Positions 10,496 through 46,643 of a stretch of DNA of 64,000 bases are shown here, piece by piece (positions within the stretch are counted from its first letter, which is position 1; each line of letters opens with the position of its first letter). Source of the DNA: Branchiostoma floridae. Its lineage: Eukaryota > Chordata > Leptocardii > Amphioxiformes > Branchiostomatidae. A program made the translations under genes and the position numbers. Under the pieces are notes generated by a model. That model made no database searches, was not told where the DNA came from, and saw only the letters and a list, made by a program, of their open reading frames with translations. The DNA is taken from assembly GCF_000003815.2 (NCBI RefSeq), contig NC_049993.1, positions 12,389,189-12,453,188 on the forward strand. Direction: 5' to 3'.

Positions 10496-11110
10496 CTTGT
10501 ATGGACTAGACTGTTAGGCCAGGTGTGTAGGGGAGGACTAAAATTTTGATGATTTTTTAAACACTCAATTGATGTTAAAGCCATTTTGTTTTACATTATT
10601 CTTCTTACAAATCAAATATAATGATAAAAATATCTTAGAGATGTATTATTATTACTATATGGTCTTAATGATATAAAATACTTTACAATTTGTCCCTAAA
10701 AGTGTAATGAAATATTCCGAAAAAGACAGAGAGATGCAATGACAGCAAACTAACGTAGTGGGCACTAAATATTACCAAAATATAGAGAAGACTTACAGAT
10801 GTATGAAAAAGCTAGTATAAGATGAAAAAAAATTATTCATTTGTAGTGATATTTTACATCTTAACACATTCTATCCAGAAATAATTTGATTTGTGTGACT
10901 TATATCAAAGTTATATGTGCGCTTCCATGCTTTAGTAGACAAGGAGGGCAGCTGTGACGTAACCAAAATCAATATGGCGTTGGTGGAGTCTGCTACGTGG
11001 AACCGGAACTGTCTTCAATTTTTACGGAAAATGGCTAAACCAAGGACTTTTTAGCCACGATGTCGTAACTAGAAGAAAACCAAGTACTTCCTGATCTTCC
11101 TTAGTGGACG
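10496..11110. promoter_or_regulatory. Intergenic region between divergent ERMP1 and EDEM3-like genes, probable shared promoter
   Basis: Only 615 bp separate the two start codons. On the EDEM3 side are TGACGTAA (10955-10962, CRE/ATF-like) and AATATGGCG (10971-10979, YY1-like). On the ERMP1 side, AAGATGGC overlaps the start codon, another YY1-like arrangement. No TATA box stands out. The middle (10,520-10,900) is AT-rich. Shared regulation is inferred from spacing only. Confidence 0.45.
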
Positions 11111-15550: not shown

Positions 15551-15623
15551 TGGAGATGCAGGGTATCGATCCCCGTACCTCTCGCATGCTAAGCGAGCGC
15601 TCTACCATCTGAGCTACATCCCC
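15551..15623 (-). tRNA. tRNA-Ala (AGC), copy 1
   Basis: A 73-base cloverleaf with no intron. Anticodon loop TTAGCAT gives AGC (Ala). The acceptor stem has the G3:U70 wobble pair that AlaRS recognises. D-arm, T-arm with ATCGATA loop, and discriminator A are all intact. A T-run follows on the minus strand as pol III terminator. CCA is not encoded. Confidence 0.97.
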
Positions 15624-15853
15624 TTCTCATGTCCAAGGCTTCAAACTAAGCCGCCTTTTTTGTGGCCACAGGCAGCGTCACAGCTAAGTATGAGTTGCAC
15701 CTGTTACTGTGCTTTGGGGATAAGGGTAATTTTCACACTGGAGATGGGTGTAGAATGGTCTATTTTTCTTCGACGTTTAAAATTGGGAAGAGGTAAAGGA
15801 AGGATCCATTCCCGTATGGGAATCATTTTGGCCTGGGATGATTTTTGAAGGGT

Positions 15854-16131
15854 AATTTGGGTAGTCTATACCAGACTGACTACGCGTAGAATTCGGCAAC
15901 AAATCGGCAAATTGGCTAGGGGAGCCAGTCCACACGTAGGCTCATGTTCCCCCAACTCTTTGGTAGCAAGGACCGGGTTAAAGAATTCTTTAACCTCCTT
16001 GTCTGGTAGCAATTTTTTTTCTCCCTAAGATAGCCAGCGTAGGCGTGAACTGGCTCGCCTGGCCAATTTGCCGATCCGAATTCTACGATCCCGGTACTCC
16101 CGTGGGAAGGCCTGGTGGAGGCTAATTTGGG
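15854..16131. mobile_element. MITE with inverted arms and 8-bp flanking repeat (hAT-like)
   Basis: AATTTGGG flanks at 15854-15861 and 16124-16131. Inside, inverted arms share GTAGAATTCGG, ATCGGCAAATTGGC and GAGCCAGT in mirrored order. The 8-bp duplication fits hAT elements. About 262 bp, non-coding. A related partial copy lies at 56,735-56,905. Confidence 0.65.
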
Positions 16132-18016
16132 AAACTCACATTATAATATCGCGCACGTGTAGACAACAACCAGTACCATAGTAACACAGGCAATAACACG
16201 TTCCTGTAGACAACCTAAGGCTTTTACGAAACAACAGTACGCTGAACACTAGTATTTACACCTACACATTTGTTTGATTGTTTTCAAACTTGTTTGCTTC
16301 ACACGTTTTTTGTCTATGGGATACACCCGTTCACCTGGAACGTAGGCATACGTAGAGGTAAGTTGATGTGATTATTTGCGAACTTGCAATCGTTTCGACT
16401 TTAGTTGCCTTTAAATTGAATTTCTGTGAATTGCCTTTTGTAGAACAATGAGAAGAACCACTCCTACTGCTCGAAGCAAATTATGTTTTGACGCTTTGTC
16501 TATCGTTACTTAACTTCGATACCATCGTAGACTTACTAGTAACCAAGCACATAAGGGGCATTTCGAAGACAAGCATACTAAATAGGACTTACAGGTTCAT
16601 TTGCTTCAAATTTCATTCACCTCATACGCTCATTCTCTATATTGAGGTATACTTCGGTCAGAAAAGGTAAACCGGCTAAGTATTTGCCACTTGGTGTATG
16701 TTGGAGTGCTGGATTTTGGTTCCTTGTCGCGGATGAACTGAACTGAACTGAACTGTCGCGCTTTGTTTGCTTGCCTTTTAAAACATAATAGGATTGATAT
16801 TCAATCAACAACTTTTTCATATGATGTTTGCTCTTGAGGCATATTTTGACATTTATTTCATGTTCTTTATCACAACATCGATGGATCCGTCAGTGGCCCC
16901 TTCACTCCATCTGATTTCAACAGATTCACCGCACGACACAGGCCATGAGACAGGTAAACCGTACCTACATGTATGTACGAAACCCTCGTTATAGATGGAA
17001 TTGACTTGGTACTTACAACAGAGATCTCACTATCTAAAGCTGTTGTATGTTGGTAGAGTCTCTGCCGTCCAAACGATTTGACAGAACAACGAATTTCGTC
17101 CATAGAAACGTAATATTTTCACACTTTGTGTGTTTTATTGTCTTGTTGGTCATACTTGTACGTTTTGTATGATATTCGAATATAAAAGATTCAATCATAG
17201 AACGCAGCGACGCCGCCAACGTAACGTAGTCCAATTATTAAAATTCTGGTGTCTTTGCGTGTCTTGGAGTCGGGTTATAGGTTATCTAACACACACACAC
17301 ACACACACACACGTGACGCCGCCACTGTTTTCACTAGGGAACGGTAATAATAAAGGCCAGTTAGAAAGAAAGGTTGTCAGAAAGGCCAACGTTTGTAGGA
17401 ACGGGGATGTAACATCCCAGGGCGGCATGGGGATTTAGTTACAAGGCTATATGTGATGACGAAAACAAGCCTTTCGAAAAACGACCCCTTCGAAAGTGCG
17501 TGGTTGAGCCACGCTAATGATTTTGCACCTTTACATCTATGTAGAAACTGCCATGCCCTACGGTATCTCCTACTACATGAAAAAGACAAGTCAATAGCTA
17601 TGACGCCAAATAATCATTCTGACACCGTCTGAGGAGAATAGATGACAGACTGAGAAGCGGAAGACATGGTCCTTTTTCATGGTAATTTCATTTAAGAAAT
17701 AGTGTAGCAGCTGTCTTATCATACATACTACTGAGGAGCTCTTTGACATTGCAGACATGACAGAATGGACAGCAGTAGCCAATACCCTCTTGCCCACGCA
17801 TTAGTCTAGATTAGAAGAACGGGAAAACAGACGACATCGTGGGATCAGCTGCACTCGAAAAGACGTAATTATGAACGCTTTGTTTTGTGACGTCCTTGGT
17901 CCTTGGTTTTACGAAGCGATATTGAGCCATGCGTACGTCATTGCATTTATAAGTGAAAAACATTTGACTCCAACGGTATTCTGCTTCTCAAGGACACCAC
18001 AACTCATGACGGAATA
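16132..18016. other. Spacer and upstream region of GPCR gene 1
   Basis: No supported gene. It contains an (AC)n microsatellite at 17289-17312. TTTATAAG (17946-17953) could be a TATA box for the GPCR gene at 18017. A splice-acceptor-like CTGCTTCTCAAG (17981-17992) lies 24 bases before the ATG. A block near 16,890-16,960 resembles one near 21,010-21,090 upstream of the second GPCR gene, possibly a duplicated 5' exon or enhancer. Confidence 0.4.
17289..17312. repeat. (AC)n microsatellite
   Basis: About twelve uninterrupted AC units in the GPCR upstream spacer. Confidence 0.95.
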
Positions 18017-19156
18017 ATGAAGTACGGAGGCATCTACATTTTGGCTGTGCTGGTGGTGCTCCTCGCCACAAGCCACTGCGCTGGGATAAAGGTGGATTCT
18101 GGATCGAACTTGAACGTTACGGGTGAATCAGGTGAGGAAACGGGTGCGTTCTCCAATTCATCACAGCGTAACACCGCCAGTTCCTTTAGAAGATGTCAAT
18201 TCGACAACAGGTCAACCTTAGTAGGAGATGTCACTCCATACGTCGATGAATGTCTGAACAAGGAGCCCCCAACGTCCTTTCCTCTTCAAAAGTACGTCTC
18301 TGACGATAATTTCGTGTACATAGGCATAACTATAAGTCTTGGTGCCTGGTCAGTCGTGGCAAACAGCCTTCCGCTAGCTGCCATCATCAAGCATGAACAG
18401 CTCCACACGCCCGTCTACATCCTCATGGCTAATATGGCAGCAGGCGACGTTTTGGCCGGAACAACTTTCGTGGTGGGAGTTGGTTTGCAGCTGTACGTCG
18501 TACTAACCGAGACCGTCCCCTCCAATGCCGTGTTAAACATTCGCCTCTCGTCTCTTCTACTCTCCGGGATGTCCTCCGCCTACAGCCTGGTGGCCCTGAC
18601 GACCGAGCGCTACTGGTTCATCGTGCACGGGATGAGCTACGTCAACAACGTCACCAACGGCAAGTGCAAGGTCATGATCGTTTTCGTGTGGATGTGGTCG
18701 CTGCTGCTGGCGGTACTGCCGCACGTTGACTCGAACTGCACAGGACGTTTTGAGGAAGGATGCGTCCCGTTAGGTGCGGGATTGTCCAAAAACTACGTGA
18801 TCGTTGTCCTCGTGTTCGTTTTCATCCCGATGTCGGCAATCTTCCTTCTCAACCTGGGCATCTTCTGGTGTCTGTGGAAGCACATGAACGCCATCGCCGC
18901 GCAAGAAGCCGCTGTGGGCGCCCCGCCGAGCGTCAGCAGAAAATCCGCCATCACCATCGTCATCATCACAGTCGTGTTCCTAGTGGGATGGATGCCATTC
19001 TTCGTCGAAATTTCCCAAATGTCTACAGACATGGTTGGCGTGTATAAAACGATGATCTTCATCAGCCTAAACTCTGCTATCAACCCCGTCATCTACGGAT
19101 TCCGCCTGAAGGAGGTTCGTCGCGGTGTTGCACGACTCTTCGTCAATAATCAGTAG
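18017..19156 (+). CDS. Rhodopsin-class GPCR, tandem copy 1 (EDG/cannabinoid/melanocortin-like group)
   Basis: Seven-transmembrane receptor of the plasma membrane, 379 residues, coding frame without introns. Seen: N-terminal signal-like segment (about 4-22) and an extracellular N-terminus of some 90 residues with several N-X-S/T sites. Helix 1 has VVANSLPL, helix 2 has ANMAAGDV (D2.50), and helix 3 ends TTERYWFIVHG (ERY in place of DRY). Helix 6 has VGWMPFF (G in place of the usual C of CWxP), and helix 7 has NPVIYGFRLKEVRRG. No cysteine is visible at the top of helix 3, and two cysteines lie within extracellular loop 2 (NCTGRFEEGC). That pattern is typical of the S1P/LPA, cannabinoid and melanocortin group. 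The ligand cannot be read from sequence. The start aligns with copy 2. Likely an amphioxus-type lineage expansion. Confidence 0.9.
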   Translation: MKYGGIYILAVLVVLLATSHCAGIKVDSGSNLNVTGESGEETGAFSNSSQRNTASSFRRCQFDNRSTLVGDVTPYVDECLNKEPPTSFPLQKYVSDDNFVYIGITISLGAWSVVANSLPLAAIIKHEQLHTPVYILMANMAAGDVLAGTTFVVGVGLQLYVVLTETVPSNAVLNIRLSSLLLSGMSSAYSLVALTTERYWFIVHGMSYVNNVTNGKCKVMIVFVWMWSLLLAVLPHVDSNCTGRFEEGCVPLGAGLSKNYVIVVLVFVFIPMSAIFLLNLGIFWCLWKHMNAIAAQEAAVGAPPSVSRKSAITIVIITVVFLVGWMPFFVEISQMSTDMVGVYKTMIFISLNSAINPVIYGFRLKEVRRGVARLFVNNQ

Positions 19157-19402
19157 CGGAGACGCCATAACGAGGAGTGGACTGGACAAAAAAAAGACTA
19201 CAATTTCAGAAATTGTACATCTCAAGACAAGTTACAGCCGAAAATCAAACACATAGGTAGATCAGAAGCAACAGCATAAAACAGCTCCACAGGGAATATC
19301 TTCCCTTTTGATAATGATATATTGAAACTATGGTAAACATGGTTTAAACAACAAGATGTGGACAATCTTAGCATGAAAGTTCATCTGTGTTGGTAGAATA
19401 CA

Positions 19403-19627
19403 TTATAGAAATAGCTAAACTTTCTTTCCAACACTGAATTAATATAGGGACTTACCCTAAATTTTCGGTCGAACTCCGTCAACCTTGTTCACAGAATGAC
19501 CCTTTCTATCTCCAGCAGTGACGTCAGGAACACGCCACTTTTGTAGGAGGGGGTCATAAGTATCAGAAAGTCTATGCCGCCCCTATATTAATTCAGTGTT
19601 GGAAAGAAAGTTTAGCTATTTCTATAA
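19403..19627. mobile_element. MITE with perfect 47-bp terminal inverted repeats
   Basis: Arms 19403-19449 and 19581-19627 are exact reverse complements over 47 bases (outer end TTATAGAAATAGCTAAACTT). About 130 bp of unrelated sequence lies between them. Flanks suggest a TA-type target. Perfect arms imply recent movement. Shorter relatives sharing GCTAAACTTTCTT lie at 24,268-24,317 and 40,392-40,487. Confidence 0.8.
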
Positions 19628-20701
19628 GATATGGACAAGTTAGAATGTGTGCCAAAATAGACCCTGATAACTGAGAGAAGTTAAGTCAATGATTACATTT
19701 ACGAAGCAAAATCTACCAAGAGCTTTTTGATGGCCGGGAGAGATGGACTGAAAGGGTCAAGAACACCAGAGCAACTTATTCAACCAGGTGATAATGACAA
19801 AGGACTGAATGTCAAATTTGTCATACCTATGGTTGCCAGGCGTAAACTTGAAGAAGAATGTAATTATCTATTTATTTTTTGCATTTGTGTAGATCATGTA
19901 GACTGATGGTGAATATATTTTGTGGTTTTGAAGGTTAAGAAGTCTAATCGTGCACGCTATATAGTAGTATGTATATAACGTTAGCATAATGTGTGTAGTA
20001 GTGCGTACGTCATATTCAGAATTTCAAACTCATCTACCAACTTGAAGAAAGAATAGGCTGTTTAATTCTACGAAAGGGAATAGAAATGATGTATCAAACA
20101 GAATTTGTCATTTTCAGAAATATATTTATGTACATGTATGCATCGTTGTTGAATGTTTTTGTAAGATGCCTATAACTATTTATCGTAGAAAGTGAACGTT
20201 TTTGTAGAGTTATCAAAGGTGATTTGATTGGCTTGAATGGGATAATTTCAAATACTGAGGATTAATGAATGAAGACCTTTATTGTACATACATACATACA
20301 TACCCACTGGGTTCCGAAGTACATGTCGCAACAAAAGATACATAAAATATATACAATGAATCTACAATCCTATTCTACTGCATGAATTCGACTTCTTCTC
20401 GTTTCTTTGTGATATTGAAAATGTAGGAACAGATATGCTTTAGAAGTAAAGGTTTGTCTAAATTCATAAGGAATATAAATTTGTCTATATTACTTAGTTG
20501 TATGAAGTTGGGAAACATGGGTTCTATCAGTCTATACAGTTCATGAAGTCCACTCTGTGTGGTTTAGGTTGAAGGATATCTTTCAATATATCCTGACTTG
20601 GGAATGTAATTGATAAAAAAAAAGAAAAAAGAAAAAAAACAAACAAAATTGGTGACAATCCCTTTTCTGAAGCCAAAACTGTAAAAGTTCAAAAAAAATA
20701 C
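19628..20701. other. Gene-free spacer after GPCR gene 1
   Basis: No gene supported. Around 20,280-20,310 a TTTATTGTACATACATACATACATACC run resembles the tail of a retroelement on the minus strand, but no coding part is visible. AT-rich simple sequence lies near 20,610-20,700. Confidence 0.4.
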
Positions 20702-20774
20702 TGGAGATGCAGGGTATCGATCCCCGTACCTCTCGCATGCTAAGCGAGCGCTCTACCATCTGAGCTACATCCCC
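20702..20774 (-). tRNA. tRNA-Ala (AGC), copy 2
   Basis: Same 73-base sequence as copy 1, with anticodon AGC and G3:U70. An eight-base T-run follows on the minus strand (terminator). Confidence 0.97.
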
Positions 20775-22131
20775 GTCCACACAATTACACTTAGCAGTCT
20801 TTGAAATAGCGGCATCAGAAAAGCTATCATCGTTATTGGCGCGTGTTATTCTATTTTAGTGTAATGATATCTATTTCCATGGGAACTTATAATTACCAGC
20901 TTGCCTTTCAATCGAGTTTTAGAGAAATGTCACACAATAATAACACAAATATGACTACGCCTATCAGACAGATTTATGCTTTGAATCTGCTTTTATTTCT
21001 ACCAGTGCCAGTGGATTCGTCTTGTCCCTTCGCCCAGATGATTTCAATAGACTCCAGTCCAGGGCAAACATATCAGATGAAATGCTTTCACTGTAAAATG
21101 GAATGGACTTTGTAATCCCAATAGTCGCTAGGGGTATTTACCTCACTTTGAGTTGAATGCGCGTGACACAGCGGATTTAGCATAAAAAAAATTCAGCCGT
21201 GTTCGCTTTAGTCCGCTCCAGATCATGAAGGTCATTACTTATACCCTGTGGGAGCTGACTATATGCGAACAAGGCTGCACTCCAGGCTACAACGGATTAT
21301 TATTTGTTTGCCGCTATAGCCTATCATGGTACATCATGATCATTCTAATATACGTATACGCCTGTAGTCAACCATTAAAATCAACACTCCGTGGAGAGAC
21401 AGGGAAACAGCTAATGAAACAAATATGAACTTCTGCTGATTCTCTGATGGTCTGATTGAAGCAATTGCAACGCAGACCACGAACTCTTTCGGGTGAGCTG
21501 AAACACATTGATGAGTATCGTGATTCTGAAGATTCAACTACTGCCCTAGCCTGGTATCCAGCCGTACTATGGCTCCCAAGTCCCCTCGAAGAGCATAATA
21601 CGGCTGGATACCAGGCTAAACCTCCCCGCCCTAAATCAGTGCAAATCTTGATGTCTCTCCTGCTAGATACAAATGACCAGACAATAACCATGATGTTACA
21701 AAATTAGGACAGGCGGGGATAGCTGTAATATGTTACAGTTGTCGTGCAATATATATTCTTCTTATATATACCATGATCTCGTTAGCTCTGCACTGAGCAG
21801 GCCAGAGAGCAGATTGTAAAGAGGCCATAATGTCCCAGACCAAGAAGACACATCTTGGCCGCGGGTAATTGAAATACGTACTTCAAAAAAGGTAATATTA
21901 CGTCCACCCAGGTGGCGCAAATGTCTCATTTTCAATATTCTAAAATGGAACAGGTCGGGAAATACGAAACATCCAAAGGCATCAGCTGGTGCAAAAAATG
22001 CAATTGCAAATCTTAAAAGGAAAGATAAAAATAGTTCCACTTAGGTGTCAGAAGCAGCATTAATTGAAAACGCCATTTATATGAGACGCCATCTTCTTTG
22101 TTTCAGATAGACTGTAGCTCACGGCGGAGCG
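20775..22131. other. Spacer upstream of GPCR gene 2
   Basis: No supported gene. It holds the small hairpin element at 21547-21618. A splice-acceptor-like TTTGTTTCAG ends about 27 bases before the GPCR ATG, matching the position of one before copy 1, so a 5'UTR intron is possible. Confidence 0.35.
21547..21618. repeat. 72-bp hairpin element, TAGCCTGGTATCCAG arms
   Basis: 25-base arms differ at a single base (GTACTATG versus GTATTATG) around a loop of about 22 bases. It has the size and form of a minimal MITE or an RNA hairpin. Outer TAGCCT resembles the end of the element at 15,862-16,123. Confidence 0.75.
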
Positions 22132-23247
22132 ATGATGTACAGAGGCAGCTACGTAATGGCGGTGTTGCTGGGTCTTCTCGTGACAAGTAGCAGCGTTGGA
22201 GTAAGTCCAGATTGTTGGTCGGACTTGAACGTTACAAACCAGGTCAGTGACAAAGCCAACAATTCAACTCTACGGATCCTGAATGGTTTGTCTCTCGACA
22301 ACAGCTCTGGTTTAAGAGAAGATGTAACTCCGGACGTCCCCGAATGTGTCGAACCTCCAACGTCCTTTCCTCTTCAAAAGTACGAATCTACCTGGTCTCT
22401 GTTCTTCGTAGGCGTCGCTCTTTGTCTGGGTGTCTGGTCAGCCGCGGCAAACAGCCTCCCGCTAGCTGCCATCATCAAGCATGAACAGCTCCACACGCCC
22501 GCCTACATTCTCATGGCTAATATGGCAGCAGGCGACGTTTTGACCGGCATAAGTTTCACGATCGGGAGTAGTGGGCTCATGTACGTGGCAGCAACGGATA
22601 CCGTCCCGTCTGATTTCATGTTGCGTCTCCGCTCGTCATCAATCCTACTCTCCGGGATGTCCTCCGCCTACAGCCTGGTGGCCCTGACGGCTGAGCGCTA
22701 CTGGTTCATCGTGCACGGGATGAGCTACGTCAACAACGTCACCAACGGCAAGTGCAAGGTCGTGATCGTTTTCGTGTGGATGTGGTCGCTGCTGCTGGCG
22801 GTAATGCCACACGTTGATTCGAACTGCACAGGACGTCGCTTTGAGGAAGGATGCGTCCCGTTAGGTTCGGGATTGTCCTCAAATATTGTAATCGTTGTCC
22901 TCGTGTTTGTTTTCATCCCGATGTCGGCAATCTTCCTTCTCAACCTGGGCATCTTCCGGTGTCTGTGGAAGCACATGAAAGCCATCGCTGCACAAGAAGC
23001 CGCTGTGGGCGCTCAGCCGAGCGTCAACAGGAAATCCGCCATCACCATCGTCATCATCACAGTCGTGTTCCTAGTGGGATGGATGCCAATCTTCGTCGAA
23101 CTGGCTCGGCTTTCAACAAACTTGCTTACCGTGTATGGCATGATGATGTTCATTATCTTGAACTCTGCTATCAACCCCATTATCTACGGGTTCCGTCTGA
23201 AGGAGGTTCGTCGCGGTGTTGCACGACTCTTCGTCAATAATCATTAG
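22132..23247 (+). CDS. Rhodopsin-class GPCR, tandem copy 2
   Basis: 371-residue paralogue of the receptor at 18017-19156, same strand, about 3 kb downstream, also without introns in the coding frame. It shares the signal-like start, ANMAAGDV in helix 2, TAERYWF after helix 3, GWMP in helix 6 and NPIIYGFRLKEVRRG in helix 7. The stretch MSYVNNVTNGKCKV plus helix 4 is nearly identical, even in DNA. The N-terminus, the loop between helices 2 and 3, and the outer ends of helices 6-7 differ clearly. The homology continues a few bases past the stop (GCGGAGACGCC). A poly(A) signal AATAAA lies at 24125-24130. Ligand unknown. Confidence 0.9.
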   Translation: MMYRGSYVMAVLLGLLVTSSSVGVSPDCWSDLNVTNQVSDKANNSTLRILNGLSLDNSSGLREDVTPDVPECVEPPTSFPLQKYESTWSLFFVGVALCLGVWSAAANSLPLAAIIKHEQLHTPAYILMANMAAGDVLTGISFTIGSSGLMYVAATDTVPSDFMLRLRSSSILLSGMSSAYSLVALTAERYWFIVHGMSYVNNVTNGKCKVVIVFVWMWSLLLAVMPHVDSNCTGRRFEEGCVPLGSGLSSNIVIVVLVFVFIPMSAIFLLNLGIFRCLWKHMKAIAAQEAAVGAQPSVNRKSAITIVIITVVFLVGWMPIFVELARLSTNLLTVYGMMMFIILNSAINPIIYGFRLKEVRRGVARLFVNNH

Positions 23248-24572
23248 CGGAGACGCCAATCTACTAGACTTGGTTGTCTCTTTATCTAGTTAAGACGAGA
23301 AAGTTTGTATGGAAAATCATGTTAAATTTTTTCCTCGTAGGGCAAACATATTGTTTTTCTGGTGTGTGATTCTGCTTTCTCCTTCTTCCGCCAGTAGCCA
23401 ATCAGACCTTAGGTTGGATATTAGCTGATATTGTAAATCTGTGCATTTGTTTGGAAACACAATACTATAGGGCGAGCCAAATTGTATAGTATTGTGTGAG
23501 AGAAAGTTGACAAAGGCTACAGGGAAACATGCTGCTTTTTCACGAAAATATTGCTTTCCTAATGTAGAAAAATGTTGCGTTCCTAATGTAGTTTAACTTG
23601 CAGTTACATATCTATTTTCATGTGTTGTTATTTTGCTGGAATGTTCTGTTACTAGAGAATCACCCAACTATTTCACTTTAAGAAGTTAATCTCCTCTTAG
23701 TTGAGAATCGATGAGATAAGATGTCGTTTTCGCATTAATTTTACATAAGAAGGATTCATTCGTATAGAGAATTAATGACATTGAGGCATTACATCTCATC
23801 ATTGTCGGTAAAAGATGATTTGAAATCTTCTTATGTATAGAATTAATGAGATAAAGGAGTACTTTGCGAAAATGTGTTCTCCGTAATTTCCGGCAGTGTC
23901 TTATCATGAAGTATGGTTCTGTAAATTTGAATATTTTTGTTTGAGTGTAGTGGTTGCATTGGCGCAGGACTCTGATAGTTATATGCAGTTAAGGATAGTC
24001 TTGTTGTATTTTGAAGAGTAACACCGGTAATTTTCGGCATGGCTAACAGTTTTTACCTATTACAGTGTACTGTTGTGCAGGTAAGACTATAGGGGATGCG
24101 TTGGAAGTATATTGAATATCGTACAATAAATAGATAAATAAATATATATGTATATGTATAAAACGTGACTTATTGTGACTATCTTGTGATTATAGGAATT
24201 GTTAAATTTGATACAATAAGTATGTACATTAAGGAAGCTTATCTTTGTTGGTAGTAACGACAGTACAACGCTAAACTTTCTTCCGACACAAAGGTAGTGT
24301 TGGAAGGAAGTTTAGCATATTGTGCGAACAATATTGAACATGTACATGTAGTAGACTGACTTCAATTGCATGGATTTAGTTGGATTGGATTGCAGGAAAA
24401 TATCAATGGTCTCTGGCCTGTGTGGAATAGTCAGAGTATTGTGGTTCTGTTGAAAAGTATCTTAATATAGGAAAGTGTGAAAACACGGCTACCTTCACTG
24501 AAGCCCGAAACTACAAAATACAGGGACAAAAGCGTCTGGAAATCCTAAAACGTGCAACAGTTAAAAGTATAT
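23248..24572. other. GPCR 2 3' region and spacer
   Basis: AT-rich; AATAAA at 24125-24130. A short inverted repeat (GCTAAACTTTCTTCC / GGAAGGAAGTTTAGC) at about 24,268-24,317 is related to the MITE at 19,403. No gene seen. Confidence 0.5.
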
Positions 24573-24645
24573 TGGAAATGCAGGGTATCGATCCCCGTAC
24601 CTCTCGCATGCTAAGCGAGCGCTCTACCATCTGAGCTACATCCCC
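24573..24645 (-). tRNA. tRNA-Ala (AGC), copy 3 (acceptor-stem variant)
   Basis: As the other copies, except for one base in the 3' acceptor strand (CATTTCC instead of CATCTCC). That makes a second wobble, G4:U69, beside G3:U70. The stem is still fully paired. A minus-strand TTTT lies within ten bases. Confidence 0.93.
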
Positions 24646-24883
24646 ATTCACGTTAAGCTACCCAGAAAGCTAAGCAACTTGATAGCTATCTATGACGAGT
24701 TTGTTCGGATTACATGCACAGCAAACGTGTGGGCGAAAGACGGGCACTGTTGTACTCTTTAGAGTATCATAACATTGAAATGTGCATAACTATATATTTA
24801 TGCAAATTGGAATACAAAAAAATACCATAATGGCAAAATGTAGGCTTTCCGAAAGCTAAAACTGCACAAATAAAATAAACATC

Positions 24884-24956
24884 TGGAGATGCAGGGTATC
24901 GATCCCCGTACCTCTCGCATGCTAAGCGAGCGCTCTACCATCTGAGCTACATCCCC
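24884..24956 (-). tRNA. tRNA-Ala (AGC), copy 4
   Basis: Identical in its 73 bases to copy 1. The downstream T-run is weaker (GATGTTTATTTTA). It lies 238 bp from copy 3. Confidence 0.96.
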
Positions 24957-25711
24957 GTCCACACAAGCCATCGGAAAACCAAGCTCTTAGCTGCATTTGA
25001 CGTGTGACAACAGCTGCAGGTGATGAAACTTGATCGATATTTTCGTTATATATGATGACGACTGGAATAACAATGGAACAGAGGGCGAAGGGGACATTTT
25101 AAAAATGATGTTCAAGATCGGTATCAGTACGTATACTTGACCACCGGCAATTCTATATTGAATTTGCTCCTTTTTGTTTATGTCTGTTCAGGATTTTTTC
25201 AGTCTGAACAGTTTTTGGTCTAAAAGCATATCTTCGTTTGTTAATCACATATGATAAATAGCCAAACTGTTTTTTTTGCCCAATCCGTCTCAAGATTGAT
25301 GACCATTTCTTCGGTCACGTGACTTCGTAATGGTTATGGTGCACAAAACATTGACATTCCATATCACATTGACAACACAATACAAAAACAACGAAAACAA
25401 AAACCAATACATCAATTTGCTGCTCGGTTTTATCTTTTCATCTTAAATTTTAGCTGATATCTTGCTTAAATCGTTTTCGAATTGATGAATCAGGCATGTA
25501 AAATAAAAAGCCAGCAATTCCATTTTCAAACTCCATATTATATTGCCTTTGATGTAAAGATGCTTATATCAGCACGAATACACACTTGGAACAATGCATG
25601 ATGCTAATCATGGGAGCAAAGTTTAAGTGGACCAAGCTGGGTTGTTTACCAGCTATTCTAATCTTTGAACGAAGCCGTGCGACAGTGTACGTGTTACAGA
25701 AGCTGTGCACT
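24957..25711. other. Spacer and upstream region of the PNGase F-like gene
   Basis: AT-rich, without a recognised gene. It should contain the promoter of the gene starting at 25712, but no clear core element is visible. An upstream in-frame ATG at 25586 would add 42 residues before the signal peptide and is disfavoured. Confidence 0.4.
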
Positions 25712-28700
25712 ATGATGGCAACGGCAGCCTCTGTTCTGGCCATTCTGGTCTTCACGAGTTCCCAAGCCTTTGGCCATGAGAATGTAGCTAAAGTATTTGT
25801 CTCGAACGCCCTGGAAGATGCAGAGAAAGTATGGCTAGAAGAGAGTGAGGATGGTCCCGATAATTCGAACGACGTGCTGCCGTCCAAAGGTCATCAGCAG
25901 GCCGCTTCATGGACGGCGGCGGATCTCGAGCCGGACCGCCCGGCACCACCGTTCAAGCTCTGGACTCTGGACGGGGTCCTCACCGACGATGATCTGAAGG
26001 GTAACCCCGTCATCTTCCACGGTTATAACAGCCACTCAGGCTTCCTGGAGTGCCTGTGGACGTCCAACGCGTCACGGGTGTCGCTGATTGACAGGACGCC
26101 CAACAACACGCACTACGTCTTCATGACGAGGTCAGAGAACGCCTACGAAGACGCGCGCTGGATGAAAGGGCTTATGGAGGCAGCCACTCAGCTAAGCACC
26201 AGGTAGGGAAGTGATATCGAACGCCAAATGTGTAATCTAGATGAGAAATAAAAGGATATTATAGACATAATATGCAATAAAACAATGATCATTGTCATCC
26301 AACGTTAACAGATCACTGAACAATTCGTCATTGAGACCAGCCGGGGATGTAGCTCAGATGGTAGAGCGCTCGCTTAGCATGCGAGAGGTACGGGGATCGA
26401 TACCCTGCATCTCCAGTATATGTTTTTTCTTTCAATAACATTTACAATATGTTATCTCTGAAAAAACGATTCCTACAATACGTTTATGAAGATTAGACAT
26501 TAACCTCTACAATTGGATTTGGAAATTACTTCCAGACGTTTCGAGTGATATCCATCACTCTTCTTTAGCGTCACTAGAATTAACTACATGTAGTTAGAAT
26601 GCTACACTCCAAACATGTCTAACATGTTGACCGCACCTTTCTCCAGGCCAGACGGCGAGAAGAAGGCCCTGATGTCCCGCCTACACTACGTGGTGACCCC
26701 GGTACACCAGCTGGGGAACTGGATGCCTGCCCTGATGAACAGGTGGAGCTGTGAGGACCACGGGTGTGGCCTGCCGCAGGTTCTTTTCACATCATCAGGT
26801 TAACAGCAATCATTGTCATTAGTTTTGTTGAAACATTTTCTGTATCTGTAATACACCAGCACTGTCTTTAATGAACAATGGAGTAATGTAGAGCCCCCTG
26901 TTATAAAAACGCCATGGGCCTACTACATTTTCTGGAACTTTCCCCTCCTAACTTTTATACATATTTGCAACTGATGAAGGTCACACCTCCTCACAAAGGA
27001 AAAACACACGTGGCAACCATCCGTCTAACGCAGTCAGTTCTACATAGTTTGAAAAGGAATATTAGGTTGCGTTTGACTACATGTGCTTAACGAAAGGCCA
27101 TTTGCCATTAAACAATCTTAATCCACTATTTTGTCCTCACAGTGTCTCCGCTGCCCCTCATCCTCAAACGACTGGACGCGCGCTATGATTGGCTGATGGG
27201 ATCCTTCCCAGCGGCCTCCACGAGACTTGCTGACGGAGGAAACGGTTGCGCAGGCGCACCTGCTGTGGAGAACTCCATCGCATGGGTGTCTGCCGCGGGC
27301 AACTGTTCTTTCTTCACTAAGGTTGGTCTGCGTTTACTAACCTAACAAAGTAAAGTAATGTGAGTCTCCATGGTCTAAATACCAGATACCTGGTTGACCT
27401 TTTTAACGACAAAGTTTTAGCGCCGCCAATAAGCATTAAGGCAAGTACACATACATCTTAAAAGTGGGTTTGTAATGTATAGAGTATGTATGTATCTTCT
27501 TGAATCGCTTTTAAATAACACTACATTTCAGTCAATAAAGGCTGATACTCTGTGTAGTTTCATAACAGCGTAATAAAACATTCGTTAATCCATTCATCCA
27601 TTTGAATACACTGATTACAATGGAAAGAGCTAGAAATCACAGAAGAATGATTTCAACAAAGTGTTAAAACGGCAATATAGTGACTATATCACAGTTTTAA
27701 AGGACACCATTGAACTTGAGAAAAGAAAAGAAAATTTTCCCCCTGTAGGTTCGTAACATGATGAATTCGAAGGCGCTTGGTGTGCTAGTGTACGCACCGC
27801 CCGGGACCCCCCTCCAGGACATGAACTGTGAGGGGGACGAGTGCGGCCACCCCCTCAACATCCGGGCAACCATGGTGCACTGGGATGTCAACATACAGGA
27901 CGCACTCAAGTAAGCTATGGGTTAAGGGTCAGTCACAACTGTGCGTATGTTCAAGTCCGAATCATCGAATAAGTTGCGTATTGCAAGTTTTTCAGCTCAT
28001 GCAAATTAAGTTTGAGGGCGATGAAGCAGTTTTTAATAATAAATAAAATCAGATAACCAGACTGAACAGCGGTGGTTCAAAGTAAAGAATAAATTCTTCC
28101 CACAATCTTTATTTAAAGCAATAAGATATCAATATAAAACTCATATAGACGAACTTGTGTGACTGGTACTTTTTTTGATACTAGAGCCCATCTAACAACA
28201 TTTTACTTTATTTCCATGTCTTAATGTGTCTCAAGGTTAATAAATCTTAGCAAACTGGTGCAATTGATTTATGTAAAATCACAACGAATTTGAAAATTGA
28301 ACTATCATTGAAGCTAAACGCGTTTACTTATATCATCATGAATTTTTGTTTGTTTATCATAGAAACGGCGCCGTCAATGTAACATTTCAGACGACCCCTT
28401 CGGACAACTTTTACTTCGCTATCGACACCCAGGGCAAGCTGGCCGAGATAGGCTGGCTTCTTTATCCGTCATTCCTCTTCTTTACATGGCAGGCACAATG
28501 GTACGTGCGATTAATCATTATTTACAAAGCCTGGAAACCAAGACTCGTGGGATGTTTTTTAGTGTTTGTGCACTAGGTTTGTGCAGAGTTGATGAGTGTC
28601 GAAGTGCCTTGTTTCGAGGCTAATTATAATGTAAAGCCATATGATTTCAGTAAAATCTAAATTCATATCAATGTGTCTGCGTCTATGGAACAGCTTCATT

Positions 28701-31700
28701 GAAATGGATGTTTTATATCTTATGAGTTCTATGGATACTAACTATTACCATTCACATAAGTACACATGCAAGCATACAGACCGTTAAATAAACGTTATTT
28801 TTTTTTAAATTTGAAAGGTTTAACTACAAGACAGACCTGTATCACAACCTTGCAAGTGAGGCAAAGGTCATCAACGTGTTTAACCGCACCGTCATGCAGG
28901 GAGACAAGGGTGTGGTGGCCACTGTCAAGCTGCCTTCAGTTAAAGGTTTGTGTCCAAAAATGCCTTAAAGTAGTTTCACGAATCAGCCAAAGCCTTAACA
29001 GTAGGTCTTGAAACAATAGCATACAAAAACTAAAATGCACGGAAACTATTTTTTTTAAAGCATTGTAGTAAATTAAATATGGAATGACAAACTAATCTAA
29101 TTTACTGTCATTAAAATCATGTGACAGTTCGACTATGCTATCTACATTCTGAATAAAGTAAAAGTCAACGTCAAATTAAATGAAAACAATTTAGTTTGGA
29201 TGTGTGACTGTTTGGGGGACGTGTGACTGTTTTGGGGTTTGATAACGTTTGCTTGACAAAGGTTGGGTTTTCGCTTCGTAATGCACAAGGTAGTCGACAA
29301 TTGACATGATCAAACAAAGAAGCGGAACAACTGGGATGACTGGCTTATTTTCGATATTTGAAACAGATAAGGGGATGTAGCTCAGATGGTAGAGCGCTCG
29401 CTTAGCATGCGAGAGGTACGGGGATCGATACCCTGCATCTCCAATATGTTTTGTCTCATAGATTTATTTTGCAGTTTAATGTTGCGCTTCAGTGAGGGGA
29501 GCTACATTTCTTTTTTATCGTGTATCTCCATTTTTCTATTAACATTTTCTTATAAGCATTGACGTTTACAGATTTCATATTTATTTTTGTTTCTTTCTAA
29601 GTGCAGACTGTTAGTTATTTTTTATCACTGCCATTATATTATCATTCAGAATCGATTACCAAAAAACAACAACACAGGACCCTGGGCTTGTGATTTTGAC
29701 AAAGTTTACGCTGTCTGCTGCAACACTGGGCAATATGACCGTATACACATTGCCACCTCTATATCTAGCCGTCAAATGTTCATATTGCGAAGCATATACC
29801 ATACCGTGACTGTATCAGTACACGTTTCGGCAACACAACATCTCCCTCCAAAAACAATTAACAATCTACGACTTTCCATTGGTCAGAAATGTTGGAGTAT
29901 TCTAACGTTGAGCTGGACATGTCCCTGTCTTGCCCGGGTACGAGAGACGACACGTGCCCCCACTGGGACCACACCATCCAGCTGTACGTGTGCTGTGACG
30001 AGGGGCACCCGCTCTGTGGTATGGAGCTGGGCCGCTGGATCACGTCATTTAGAAGGTATAAAAAGAAACACAAAAAGAAATCTAATGCTAAACAGTACAA
30101 TCCTTAAATGTCTTCCAATACAAAGGTATACACGGATCAAATTTTCAACGACCACTGCCGATTCTTCTTCCACTTGCTAGGTGGCGCTGCAGTAGAAAGA
30201 ATGTGGTCCCGAACGTGACTGAGTTTGAATTGCCCCTCACCACGGTTAACGTTCATGACTGAACGTTGTACACTTTGATTTCGATATGAGTTGGTCCTGT
30301 TTTGTGTTCAAACGTTTGAAATACGCATGCATTACTAAGGCATTATGTGTAGATATTTTCTATGTATAGTTTATGCGCTTCTGTAAATCGTTGTTTTTTT
30401 TCTTTCAGGCGTATCGGGAGATGGCTGACACCGATCACGCCCCTCCTCCCACTCTTCACGTCTAACGTGTGCACCTTCACCATGAAGACTGTCCCCTGGG
30501 CCATGCCGTGGGTTCCCAGTCTCAACGTGCGCTTCAGCGGGCTCATGGGGAAACAAGGTGACACTTTCATCCAGCTATTTAAAGTATCATTGTCATTATT
30601 CCGTACAATAGAAGAATCAATGTCTTTTATCCCAACTATTAGTTTTTATCCCAACTATTCAAAATATAATTGCTCCAAGTATTCGTAGTATCGTTTATCT
30701 CACACTCATGTTTTTTATCCCACACATTCGAAAAACTGTTGTCTTTGTCCAAGATATTCCAAGTATCATTGCTATTTTCCAAAATATTTGAAGTATCTTT
30801 GTCATTATTTCAAATATTCCAAGTATCATTGTTATTTCCAGAAATATTTGAAGAATGTATTTTTGTATTTATAAAAAATATTCGAAGTTTCCATTCCTTT
30901 TCTTTATCCCGACTTTTAAGTATCGTAATTTGTTTAATCCGAAATACTAAGTTTCAGTGGATTTAGTAGGATATATATATATATATAATAAAGTAAAATC
31001 ATCGATCATGGTATATTTGTAAATAATACTTTATCTACAGTGTAGAAATATTTTTATATTTCAATCAATCAAGTCGACAACATGTAACTTTCAAATCAAA
31101 GGAAAGGATTGTCACGAATGATGGACACAAGCTTAAGATATAACAATGAATTATGCTCAGGGACAGACAATGAGTGATTTAGTTTCATTGCTCGAGGCAG
31201 ACAAGGGGATGTAGCTCAGATGGTAGAGCGCTCGCTTAGCATGCGAGAGGTACGGGGATCGATACCCTGCATCTCCAATATGTTTTATCTGTCTTTTATC
31301 TAATCTTTTTGGCCTTGTTATTTCACGCTACATTTCCCGTTGCGACGTTTTTCCCTTTCTGAGTCTTGTAGAAGTTGTTATATGATAACGCCAGACGCAG
31401 AACTAACCTTGTTACCAATATCTAGAACTTTTAAAGGCATACATCAACTTTAAGGTCTATCTATAAAAAAACACCATCCCAAGTTTGTCTTTAATTATGG
31501 ACAATTTTTCGGTCACATTTCAAGTTTTCGGATATTGCCAATAGAAGTGCTAACGGTCAACTGTGTAAACCTGCCACACAACAGAACTGCACTGCACTAT
31601 GTCCCTAGCTTTTCTCTTTATTTGTTTTGCATTGTTTGTATTCCAAGATAACAAGCGTAACATTCATACTCATTCAATAATCTTTAACGAAATACCTTTT

Positions 31701-33772
31701 ACTGCTCCCCTATGCCCTGTGTGTTCTTTAAGAATGGAATCATCCAAACTCGGATATCTATTAACAGTAACTGACGTAACAAGAAACGTAATACGACCTT
31801 GGGCAAAGGATCGTGATACTATGTCAACATCAATGGGCATAATCAAACAAATGGCGGTACAACTGGAATGACTGGTTTATTTTCGGCCTCGGTGCCAGAC
31901 AAGGGGATGTAGCTCAGATGGTAGAGCGCTCGCTTAGCATGCGAGAGGTACGGGGATCGATACCCCGCATCTCCAGGAGGTTTTTTTGCCACAAATTAAC
32001 CATTTTTATTCAAGTCCAGACAATGTTTTGTTCGTATCATTGAATATTATCTAAGAATCTAATCTTCACAATTAATGTAAAAGTGTCCTCTATAATGGTA
32101 ATGCCCTACTCATGGTGACATATTTTCAAATTTAAAAAAAAGTTAGTTTAAGGGGGTATGAGGTCTCCAAACTCTTGATTTATGCGTGCAGATGTAAGTT
32201 TTAGGACCAATGGTTTCCAACTTTCCAATGTTTCTATGTAGCTTTTTATAGTAAAGCTATTGATTTTTTTTTGTTTCTTGTAGGCCACCATAGCGCCAAC
32301 ACACAGCCCTACTCCATCATCCCCCTGTTCCGCGGAGGAACGTTCAACAAGACGTACAACACGAAGTACAAGCCCCAACAGTTCGTCGTACCAAAGGGAG
32401 CAACACAGGTCAAGGACCTTTCACAGCCAATTTCTTACCTATACAATTAGAATTATAGGAATTTGGGCAAATCCAGCCCTCTTTATTATTATTATTTCTT
32501 TAAATCAGGGGTTCAAAAGTTTTTTTTTTCTTAATTACAAGACGACCTTCAGGGAAAGCTTTAGAATTATCCTCTATTGGGCAAAGAGATTCTAGTAGTC
32601 TGTTTCTTCTATGTCTATCATTTTTTATATTCATAGAATTACAAGCTACTTTTGACGAGTGTGTGCTTTATTTCTTTATCCTAGAAAAGGTACGTAATAG
32701 GAATTTAAGTAATTCCACTAGCAAAAGTGATCAGGGCAGGGTTTTCCAAAGTATAAGACTAACAACCCTAACGATCGGACAAAGAGGTACCACTGCGTGT
32801 AATACATGTATCATATTTCACAGGTGAAAGTTGTGTCTGTCATCACCGGACACGGAAGTGACGAGAACGGGTGTGGAGAGTTCTGTGTGACGTCACATCA
32901 CTTTGTCGTCAATAATCACACCAACGTTAGGGTCTTCAAGATAGCTGGTATGAACATTTTCTATTGAATGTCAGAAACTAGACCCTCGCCAAAGATAGCA
33001 CTAGCATCATAATGAAAAAAATATTTCCAAAAGTTGGTGCGATTAACAATTTCTTTTCAGACTTTGCTTTATATTTCAAAGGTCTATCTTTTTGATTCTT
33101 AAGATATCTTTGTAATTGTCTTACATAGGAACGCCTCTAGGATGTGCGGACCGTGTGCCGGAGGGTGTGACGCCTAACGAACACGGCACGTGGCTGTACG
33201 GACGGGACGGGTGGTGTGATGGACAGGAGGTTGGTTGTTCTTTCTCACGTTTGAACTATTCTATCCCTATTATCTAACTATCTAATGCCCCAGTTACAAA
33301 CCAATAAGTGTGCATGTAGCCAATATAGGCCGCAGGCTGGATTTGAAAATAAGGGGACAGTGTGCCAGTGGCTTTGAGTTTGTAGTACATTTGTACTATT
33401 GCAATCAATTTCAATGTTGGAAATTTAACTCGAGACCCAACAGTCACTGAAAGTCGCTTTTCCCCCAACAGCCCTTAAACTCCCAGGGGGGGCATTAGTT
33501 TGGAAATGCAATCATTTGTTATGAGCAAGTTGGCACGAGCACTGGACGGAAGCAAATACATTGTTACATGTATACCTGTATAATGTTTTTTCCCTCTTAA
33601 TTTTACCTTCTAGATCAACCCATGGGTGGTGGATGTGACAAGTCAGGTGTCCTTCACCAAACCCAACAATGTCAGTTACTATGGCTGGTACAACGGTGGT
33701 GACCCCAACCCACAACAGAACCCAGGCTACATCATCATGTACTCCTATCTGGTCTTCTATAGGGATATGTGA
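25712..33772 (+). CDS. Secreted PNGase F-like protein with PA-type insert
   Basis: Twelve exons: 25712-26202, 26647-26798, 27143-27321, 27749-27909, 28363-28500, 28818-28945, 29887-30055, 30409-30557, 32284-32408, 32824-32947, 33129-33229, 33614-33772. Phases agree throughout and give about 691 residues. Seen: signal peptide (MATAASVLAILVFTSSQAFG), an unrecognised N-terminal region, and a PA-like segment (about 250-300). The C-terminal half (about 417-690) aligns with both domains of bacterial peptide-N-glycosidase F: CPHWDH (Asp444, matching catalytic Asp60 of the Flavobacterium enzyme), LGRWIT, GCGEFC (Glu583, matching Glu206), and GTWLYGRDGWCDG. The known reaction is cleavage of the N-glycan-asparagine bond. 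The residue matching Glu118 is not visible. Many N-glycosylation sites support secretion. Exon 2's donor was chosen because only it keeps phase with exon 3. Confidence 0.85.
26343..26415 (+). tRNA. tRNA-Ala (AGC), copy 5, in intron 1 of the PNGase F-like gene
   Basis: 73 bases as the consensus, anticodon AGC, G3:U70; TTTTTT follows 7 bases downstream. Same strand as the host gene. Confidence 0.97.
29371..29443 (+). tRNA. tRNA-Ala (AGC), copy 6, in intron 6 of the PNGase F-like gene
   Basis: Consensus sequence with TTTT about 7 bases downstream. Its upstream flank resembles that of copy 8 (both contain a form of ACAACTGGGATGACTGGCTT), so the flank was duplicated with the gene. Confidence 0.97.
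30560..30965. repeat. Degenerate AT-rich tandem repeat in intron 8
   Basis: Loose copies of a 30-40 bp unit like CCAAGTATCATTGTTATTTCC alternate with AAATATTTGAAGTATC and similar blocks. It ends at a (TA)n run at 30,973-30,985. Non-coding. Confidence 0.65.
31205..31277 (+). tRNA. tRNA-Ala (AGC), copy 7, in intron 8 of the PNGase F-like gene
   Basis: Consensus sequence. The downstream AATATGTTTT matches that of copy 6. Confidence 0.97.
31903..31975 (+). tRNA. tRNA-Ala (AGC), copy 8, in intron 8 of the PNGase F-like gene
   Basis: As the others, but the T-arm 3' strand is CCCCG rather than CCCTG. That turns the G50:U64 wobble into a Watson-Crick pair. TTTTTTT follows within 8 bases. Confidence 0.97.
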
Positions 33773-34160
33773 TGATTGTTAATGACCCACACAGAACCCA
33801 GGCTACATCATCATGTGCTCCTATCTGGTCTTCTATAGGGTTATGTGATGATTATTAATGACCCACACAGAACCCAGGCTACATCATCATGTCCTCCTAT
33901 TTGGTCTTCTATAGGGATATGTGATGATTGTTAATGACCCACACAGAACCCAGGCTACATCATCATGTGCTCCTATCTGGTCTTCTATAGGGTTATGTGA
34001 TGATTATTAATGACCCACACAGAACCCAGGCTACATCATCATGTCCTCCTATTTGGTCTTCTATAGGGATATGTGATGATTGTTAATGACCCACACAACC
34101 CACACAGAACCCAGGATACATCATCATGTACTCCTACCTTGTCTTCTACAGGGACATGTG
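33717..34160 (+). repeat. 75-bp tandem repeat built from the end of the PNGase F-like coding sequence
   Basis: The last coding bases (from CAGAACCCAGGCTACATCAT through AGGGATATG and the stop TGA) recur five more times in the 3' flank. Copies begin near 33,793, 33,868, 33,943, 34,018 and 34,104. Copies 2+3 and 4+5 form two nearly identical 150-bp pairs. The last copy is the most diverged (CAGGATACATC, TACAGGGACATG). Confidence 0.92.
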
Positions 34161-35105
34161 ATGATTGTGAACGGCCCAAGAAATCCACATGAAAACTCAC
34201 CTGGTCTTCTACAAGGGCATGTGATTATTAATGAAGAAAGCATGGCAACTGCATCATATCATAACATAGGGATATGATGATATCATAACCCATAATCTAT
34301 CACATGTGCTACTCTGTAATTCTTGAAGTGGTAATGACCACTGATCCACAGCAAAACAGCCATAGATGACTAATTAAACACATCTCTTAAATAAATCTTG
34401 ACCAATTCCATACAGATGCCATTGGCAGTGTTATTGATAGGTTTATTCCGTTGTTAAAGGTGTGGAAGGCAACTTGTAATCATTATGGTGTTTTTTTTTT
34501 CTCCACGGTATCAATGGTAAGTAGGTACGTAATAAACAAACAATAAATGGAATAAGCAAATCTGTTATTTCATCTGACAAGGTTCTTCCATAAACATTAC
34601 AATATCTAACAAAACTTAACCATGGCAAACCATGTGGCTGTCCTTGGTGCTGATGTACCATCACTCAGAAGGTTGTACTTTGGGTGTATCTTTCTTCATA
34701 CCTAGAAAGAAGTACATGTACCAGTATTTCATTGCAATATCATCTATGTTAACATTCATCTACATACTCAAGGATTGGACCTTTCTTACGTATCCCTACC
34801 AACACATAAATACACTAGCTCTCCTCCTAACTATTTGAAATGTTACATGATGGACAGAAATTAGACACCAGGTCCATACCACAGCCCTTGGTGAAGCAAA
34901 GGTCATGCTGTAAGAAAAAGGGGACTGAAATGTGTGATAAACTTGCGAATTTATCTTTTCCTCTGTTTTTCAATTCATTTATGTAAATGAGAAGCATTGA
35001 ATGATTGATACATTAAGTACATTATACTTTTAACATTGACACTAGATTTTACCTTAAAACTAGTTTATACACACTGTGACATTTGACTGCCATGAATAAC
35101 ATCTG
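34161..35105. other. 3' flank between PNGase F-like gene and SDHAF3
   Basis: No gene seen. AATAAA at 34390-34395 may be the poly(A) signal of the PNGase F-like gene. The two genes converge here. Confidence 0.5.
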
Positions 35106-35978
35106 CTATCTCTTCTTGTCATCCTCAATAAGGTCTTGTAGTTCCTCAGATATTGGCTTGGTGGTTTCTTGTTGAAGCTCAAACAATTGTCCTAGCTGCT
35201 CATCTGTGAAGTTTTCTATCTTCTCTGGGGGAAGACTCTCCCCAACAGGGGCAGCCTCATCCTTAGCTAGCTGTTCCTGTAACATCTTTGCATAGTTCTG
35301 GGGGAAAAAGATAAGAAATTTCAATGACATTGTATTTGGGGTCCATCGTTTGGGGTCGCTTTGCGGTTACCAAAGGGTTCGCTTAGCGGTTACCCCAGGC
35401 GAACCTTCCTTCGCTTTCAAGTCTTTTTTCATCCATGTTTACCTGAAGTATTGCTGTACTTGTAGATGGCAGGGTGGTCCATTGCTCACTTCCTGTCACT
35501 CTAAAGTCTAAGGTGAACGTAACAAGAATATGGAAAAGATATACCTACAAAAACATAAACAACGAGACCAAAAGCAATACATCCCTGTTGACTAGAAAGT
35601 TTCATTGACCTCATGACCTGGAATGTCTGCGAGTAATGTCATACAAAGTTGATGAAATACTCAACTCAGACCTTTGCTTCCTGTCACGTCACTCTGAGTT
35701 GAACGAGACTAGCAGAAAGAAAATCCAAATTACAGAAACACAAACACACCCAAAACAGTACCTATTGTAAACGTTTCATGAAGGTAATGAATGAAATGTA
35801 CCTTCCATTCTCTCATGAATGTTTGGACCTCGGCTGCCCCGGCTTTCTTGTGTCTGTGAAACTCGTCCTTGGTGTACTGATCCCCGATGGCTCGGAAGTG
35901 TGTGGGGAGGCGGCGGTGCAGGCGGAGGATCTGCCGGTACAGGGTTTGAACCTCTCGCACATGGCGGACTGACGACAT
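35106..35978 (-). CDS. SDHAF3: SDHAF3, succinate dehydrogenase assembly factor 3
   Basis: Small mitochondrial matrix LYR-family factor that helps mature the iron-sulfur subunit of complex II (family knowledge). Two exons, 35802-35978 and 35106-35297, joined in phase 0, give 122 residues against 125 in human. Seen: the LYR motif in TLYRQILRLHR near the start, then DQYTKDEFHRHK, EWK at the exon end, and NFTDEQLGQLFELQQETTKP near the C-terminus. All are hallmarks of the ACN9/SDHAF3 family. An in-frame ATG six codons upstream (35996) is possible; the inner start is preferred because human SDHAF3 likewise starts only a few residues before the conserved RHV. It is head-to-head with the dynein intermediate chain gene. 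Confidence 0.93.
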
Positions 35979-36240
35979 CGTGAGCTGTGGATCCAATCAC
36001 TAGGAACAAGATTTGCAAGTGGTGATGTATACCTGCCCTCCTTCAGGTGATAGCTATATGGTATATAAAACACAAATCAATTTATGGTCAAGGGCAAGTA
36101 CAGATGTTGAGTAGAATAGAGTATTTGGTCTCCATGATATACTTTTTTCCAAAAAATAAATCTACATTTCCAGTCATGAAAAATTTATGTAAACTGCCCT
36201 AAAAGTTACCCATTACACATATTCATTTGAGCTTACCACA

Positions 36241-37481: not shown

Positions 37482-46643
<9,162 letters not shown>

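Follow-up and report, generated by a model that had tools for sequence, protein, structure and literature searches.

NGLY1/Png1 catalyses the same reaction as other peptide:N-glycanases (PNGases), with a transglutaminase fold and in the cytosol. A PNGase F-type enzyme in animals, including its presence in Leptocardii, is already in print: the zebrafish protein Si:dkey-256h2.1 (PDB 9LWG) was published in November 2025 under the name Ngly2, as the acid PNGase found in fish eggs, together with its activity, catalytic mutants, cryo-electron microscopy structure, and knockout (PMC12753239). According to that paper, the zebrafish structure is a homodimer of three-domain subunits, each consisting of a PNGase domain and a thioredoxin-like domain into which a PA domain is inserted, and the thioredoxin-like domain of fish Ngly2 lacks Cys-X-X-Cys. 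The zebrafish enzyme shows activity at pH 3.5 and hardly any at pH 6, loses it in the D421A and E555A mutants and nearly so in W480A, co-localises with Lamp1, and is expressed almost exclusively in the ovary; free glycans are almost gone from knockout eggs (PMC12753239). The orthologs reported there come from 58 ray-finned fishes, from other fish-like vertebrates, and from 16 additional classes of animals, one of which is Leptocardii; none comes from a tetrapod (PMC12753239). On this account, animals possess a second, non-cytosolic N-glycanase of the PNGase F kind that was lost in tetrapods. Here, we analyzed a window of 64,000 nucleotides from the amphioxus Branchiostoma floridae (12,389,189-12,453,188 of contig 15, in a genome of 513,431,437 bases and 431 contigs), and we found in it a gene that we take, with a probability of about 0.93, to be the ortholog of zebrafish ngly2 and to encode an acid PNGase. 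By analogy, we propose that its product would remove N-glycans in lysosomes or yolk vesicles.

Splicing of the window at consensus sites yielded a 12-exon gene on the + strand (25712-33772; Table 1) that encodes a protein of 691 amino acids. All 11 introns are bounded by GT and AG, the phases are consistent throughout, and the exons join into a single open frame of 691 codons, which is closed by a TGA stop codon at 33770-33772. A tblastn search of the protein against the window recovered all 12 exons and, within a tandem array that begins in exon 12 (Table 1), another five copies of the C-terminal codons; it revealed no second gene in the window. An earlier reading of this DNA (hereafter the original prediction) had the coordinates, strand, exon positions, and motifs right (CPHWDH and LGRWIT, both in exon 7, GHGSDENGCGEFC in exon 10, and GTWLYGRDGWCDG in exon 11), and counted twelve introns where the spliced model has 11. 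Among solved structures, the best phmmer match of the protein was zebrafish Ngly2 (E = 4.7e-210, residues 67-689), and in a pairwise alignment 308 of 609 aligned residues are identical between the two (50.6%). All six functional residues of the zebrafish enzyme (W420, D421, H422, W480, H546, and E555) are kept in amphioxus (W443, D444, H445, W503, H574, and E583), the zebrafish chain being numbered with the one of four offsets tried that fits all six named residues. This residue conservation, like the gene model and the domains described below, was established directly. Zebrafish Ngly2 also has a cysteine at each of the 17 cysteine positions of the amphioxus protein, and it carries one more, opposite amphioxus His624, in the region that aligns. 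The differences between the two proteins include the first 66 amphioxus residues, which do not align, and an insert, GLMGK, after residue 516. From the identity of about 51% to a protein of solved structure, we infer that the overall fold is the same. As an invertebrate copy in which every tested active-site residue is intact, the gene allows the enzyme to be compared across early chordates.

Both halves of the PNGase domain matched their Pfam models above the cut-off: N-glycanase_C (PF09113) scored 116.4 bits against a cut-off of 25 (E = 1.1e-33) and N-glycanase_N (PF09112) scored 67.6 bits against 22.4 (E = 1.6e-18). A transglutaminase-fold domain as in NGLY1/Png1 was not one of the three Pfam families that the protein hit with E values of 1 or less. 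The assignment of the protein to the PNGase F kind in the original prediction is borne out by these two domains, while the description 'bacterial type' fits the C-terminal part only. The N-terminal part, whose domains had been overlooked, corresponds in the alignment to the thioredoxin-like and PA domains of the zebrafish protein, with the PA domain ahead of the PNGase domain. The part that aligns with the zebrafish thioredoxin-like domain contains Cys114, Cys199, and Cys204 only, and thus has no CXXC motif; homology to zebrafish Ngly2 suggests that it adopts a thioredoxin-like fold.

We then placed the protein among bacterial relatives. A scan of genome contigs with the C-terminal part, which relied on the patterns VITGHGSD and [ED]N[GN]CGEFC, matched 43 stretches, of which 11 were relatives (one from Myxococcales and ten from Bacteroidetes-group metagenome-assembled genomes), and a scan of a plasmid collection found two, from Deinococcus radiodurans and Hymenobacter. 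When genome contigs were scanned with the whole-protein alignment and animal-specific patterns, none of 43 matched stretches was a relative, and neither was any of the 16 stretches matched in viral contigs. These 13 bacterial relatives, PNGase F (1PNF), and the two animal proteins make up a 16-sequence alignment. In all 16 sequences, Asp444, Glu583, Trp443, Arg631, and Trp634 are invariant, which for Glu583 is partly an outcome of the search in the loci found with [ED]N[GN]CGEFC, a pattern that contains this residue and occurs in 10 of the 13 bacterial loci; Asp444 and His445 lie outside both patterns. The catalytic Asp444 and Glu583 had been numbered correctly in the original prediction, and they align with Asp60 and Glu206 of PNGase F. 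The PNGase F of Elizabethkingia (PDB 1PNF, 1PGS, and 3PMS) has the paired PNGase domain in common with the amphioxus protein, together with these two acids and Trp59, Trp120, Arg248, and Trp251, and 49 of 258 columns are identical between them. Unlike the amphioxus protein, it has no thioredoxin-like or PA domain, and its Arg61, Trp191, and Glu118 correspond to His445, His574, and Val501 in amphioxus.

The last of these replacements bears on the alternative that the protein is catalytically dead, or a non-glycanase relative, that kept the fold for a lectin-like or carrier role. Glu118, which we take to be important for PNGase F, is not conserved: the position is Val501 in amphioxus, Ala in the active zebrafish enzyme, and Asp in 8 of the 16 sequences, and only PNGase F itself has Glu there. 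With the active zebrafish enzyme (PMC12753239), however, the amphioxus protein shares the catalytic Asp and Glu as well as the Trp tested by mutation, and the frame is intact across 12 exons, which makes a dead relative very improbable. Besides Val501, several points weigh against the assignment to an active Ngly2 ortholog. The Pfam match to PA is weak and falls below its cut-off (residues 247-297, E = 7.7e-4, 20 bits against 23.9), and the thioredoxin-like part is covered by none of the three Pfam families with E values of 1 or less. In addition, the start codon is a tentative one, as further in-frame ATGs lie upstream of it.

The alignment also speaks to the acid activity of Ngly2, for which His422 and His546, described as 'uniquely present' near the active site, have been proposed as the causes (PMC12753239). 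We found that the histidine of the GHG motif (zebrafish His546, amphioxus His574) occurs in 15 of the 16 sequences, which in the VITGHGSD locus is partly an outcome of the search, since the pattern contains it; the exception is PNGase F, with Trp191. The bacterial structures 4QHB and 3KS7 also have GHG at this position. The histidine that follows the catalytic Asp (zebrafish His422, amphioxus His445) is present in the two animals only, with Tyr in all 13 bacterial relatives and Arg61 in PNGase F. Because it is animal-specific among the 16 sequences and the GHG histidine is near-universal, His422/His445 is the better candidate for acid activity. In our sequence alignment, zebrafish Trp420, His422, and His546 pair with Trp59, Arg61, and Trp191 of PNGase F, from which a structural superposition could differ; in the text of PMC12753239, Trp420 is matched to Trp191 instead, and Trp59 and Arg61 are the counterparts of the two histidines. 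The alignment thus separates the two histidines proposed for acid activity and poses a direct question for mutagenesis.

By extension from zebrafish Ngly2, we propose that the amphioxus gene product enters the secretory pathway, and its N-terminus is signal-like: no other 15-mer among the 691 amino acids is as hydrophobic as residues 1-15 (mean Kyte-Doolittle 2.14). The product would dimerise through its thioredoxin-like domain and reside in lysosomes or yolk-type acidic vesicles. There, it would act on the N-glycans of loosely folded glycopeptides and cleave the amide bond that links the first GlcNAc to Asn, converting Asn to Asp and releasing whole glycans. Asp444 and Glu583 would act as the catalytic pair, Trp503, Trp443, His445, and His574 would line the chitobiose site, and the PA domain would border the substrate cleft. 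The activity, an acid pH optimum, the location, and a role in eggs would in each case follow the zebrafish enzyme. A signal-like N-terminus would also suit an extracellular digestive or defensive PNGase with the same chemistry, secreted to the gut or mucus and directed at food or microbial surface proteins instead of lysosomal yolk glycoproteins. The gene is kept in filter-feeding aquatic animals and absent from tetrapods as reported in PMC12753239, a distribution that alone does not point to eggs. Against such a function stand the acid-only activity, lysosomal location, and nearly ovary-restricted expression of zebrafish Ngly2 (PMC12753239) and the retention of the acid-site histidines in the amphioxus protein, and we consider it unlikely. 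Of the extracellular or lysosomal de-N-glycosylating enzyme put forward in the original prediction, the role itself is probable for a secretory-type protein that keeps the catalytic Asp and Glu, but such an enzyme is not new to animals, given zebrafish Ngly2 (PMC12753239).

Regarding descent, the Deinococcus radiodurans protein (WP_010889584.1, peptide-N-glycosidase F-related protein) contains PA (E = 1.8e-12), N-glycanase_N, and N-glycanase_C in the same order as the amphioxus protein, and 93 of 266 PNGase-domain columns are identical between the two. With hhalign, it aligned over amphioxus residues 80-690 (E = 5.3e-41), weakly so in its first 130 residues. It differs from the amphioxus protein in having Tyr, not His, after the catalytic Asp, and its gene is intronless. 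The hhalign alignment of the Myxococcales protein covers residues 389-689 only; a thioredoxin-like part in this protein is a visual impression and not a result. In an unrooted maximum-likelihood tree of the two animal proteins and 14 bacterial sequences including PNGase F, the Deinococcus protein adjoins the animals (support 99), followed by Myxococcales and then by Bacteroidetes with PNGase F; the tree gives no direction of gene transfer, because it is unrooted and contains two animals only. Animal Ngly2 may have come from a single ancient gene of bacteria in which the Deinococcus-like thioredoxin-PA-PNGase layout was already present, with the shift to a lysosomal, acid-only enzyme accompanying the change from Tyr to His after the catalytic Asp (His422/His445) and not the GHG histidine, a tentative scenario that we hold to be more doubtful than probable. 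On the Hymenobacter sp. NBH84 plasmid, the PNGase F-related gene is flanked by a GH27 gene on one side and an alpha-L-fucosidase gene on the other, and a sulfatase gene is close by, an arrangement like that of a glycan-use cluster.

Bacterial contamination or a recent bacterial insertion might be suspected from the PNGase F domain pair, which is otherwise best known from bacteria, and from the nearest non-animal relatives among those found, the Deinococcus and Myxococcales proteins. We rejected this explanation as extremely improbable, since the gene has 11 GT-AG introns with four tRNA-Ala genes inside them, lies on a contig of a 513-Mb genome among animal-type neighbours, and encodes a protein with 51% identity to a fish protein. 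The original prediction had excluded contamination on the introns and intronic tRNA genes. A PF09112 search of the window's own genome gave no match there or in 14 controls; this method misses split exons and is therefore uninformative. In the window, ARAGORN identified eight tRNA-Ala(AGC) genes (15551-31975), of which four are on the + strand in introns 1, 6, 8, and 8 of the Ngly2 gene and four are on the - strand upstream. Their bodies are nearly identical and their flanks mostly different, although three of the four in introns have a few upstream bases in common. For this reason they appear to be genuine tRNA genes, and a tRNA-derived repeat (short interspersed nuclear element, SINE) was rejected on the same grounds.

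Table 1. Positions of the amphioxus Ngly2 gene and associated features, numbered from the first base of the window.
Feature	Position	Strand	Content	Evidence
Exon 1	25712..26202	+	Signal-like N-terminus (codons from 25712), start of thioredoxin-like domain	Spliced frame, hydrophobicity
Exon 2	26647..26798	+	Thioredoxin-like domain	GT-AG bounded, phase fits, zebrafish Ngly2 alignment
Exon 3	27143..27321	+	PA domain	Spliced frame, weak Pfam PA, zebrafish alignment
Exon 4	27749..27909	+	PA domain	Spliced frame, zebrafish alignment
Exon 5	28363..28500	+	Thioredoxin-like domain end, linker	Spliced frame, zebrafish alignment, domain limits as given in PMC12753239
Exon 6	28818..28945	+	Linker, PNGase domain start	Spliced frame, zebrafish alignment
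Exon 7	29887..30055	+	N-terminal jelly roll, CPHWDH with catalytic Asp444	Spliced frame, Pfam, alignments
Codons of catalytic Asp444 and neighbouring His445	29967..29972	+	Zebrafish Asp421, His422	16-sequence alignment
Exon 8	30409..30557	+	N-terminal jelly roll, Trp503 (zebrafish Trp480)	Spliced frame, zebrafish alignment
Exon 9	32284..32408	+	C-terminal jelly roll	Spliced frame, Pfam
Exon 10	32824..32947	+	C-terminal jelly roll, GHGSDENGCGEFC with His574 and catalytic Glu583	Spliced frame, Pfam, alignments
Codon of catalytic Glu583	32878..32880	+	Zebrafish Glu555, PNGase F Glu206	16-sequence alignment
Exon 11	33129..33229	+	C-terminal jelly roll, GTWLYGRDGWCDG	Spliced frame, Pfam
Exon 12	33614..33772	+	C-terminal jelly roll end, stop codon	Spliced frame, Pfam
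76-bp tandem array, 5.9 copies	33708..34168	+		Tandem Repeats Finder, copy-by-copy comparison

The 76-bp array starts within exon 12, and its repeated unit spans the final 17 codons together with the stop codon and some 3' sequence. Compared with copy 1, copy 6 carries five synonymous and no non-synonymous changes, and copies 2-5 carry one or two non-synonymous changes each. The array may reflect unequal crossover between two haplotypes, both of them coding.

Several other genes share the window. About 12 kb from the Ngly2 gene, an uninterrupted frame of 824 codons on the + strand (11105-13579) encodes a GH47 mannosidase domain (E = 6.8e-120) and a PA domain (E = 3.1e-19) and ends in KDEL; this gene is intronless, perhaps a retrogene, and its product is presumably EDEM3-like. 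It would lie head to head with a gene on the - strand whose exons (560-10513) resemble the endoplasmic reticulum metallopeptidase ERMP1, with a match to ERMP1_C at 560-763 (E = 1.2e-13), a sub-threshold match to M28 at 8788-9198, and a first exon suggested near 10133-10501 from codon scores alone. Two related intronless frames of rhodopsin-type G protein-coupled receptors, each with a hydrophobic N-terminus, are found on the + strand at 17957-19156 and 22111-23247. Downstream of the Ngly2 gene, there is a LYR-motif exon on the - strand (Complex1_LYR_2, E = 1.4e-12, 35814-35987), followed by exon-like frames on the + strand (37482-46628) that match WD40 at 45217-45381 (E = 3.9e-6) and may belong to a cytoplasmic dynein intermediate chain, which they resemble.

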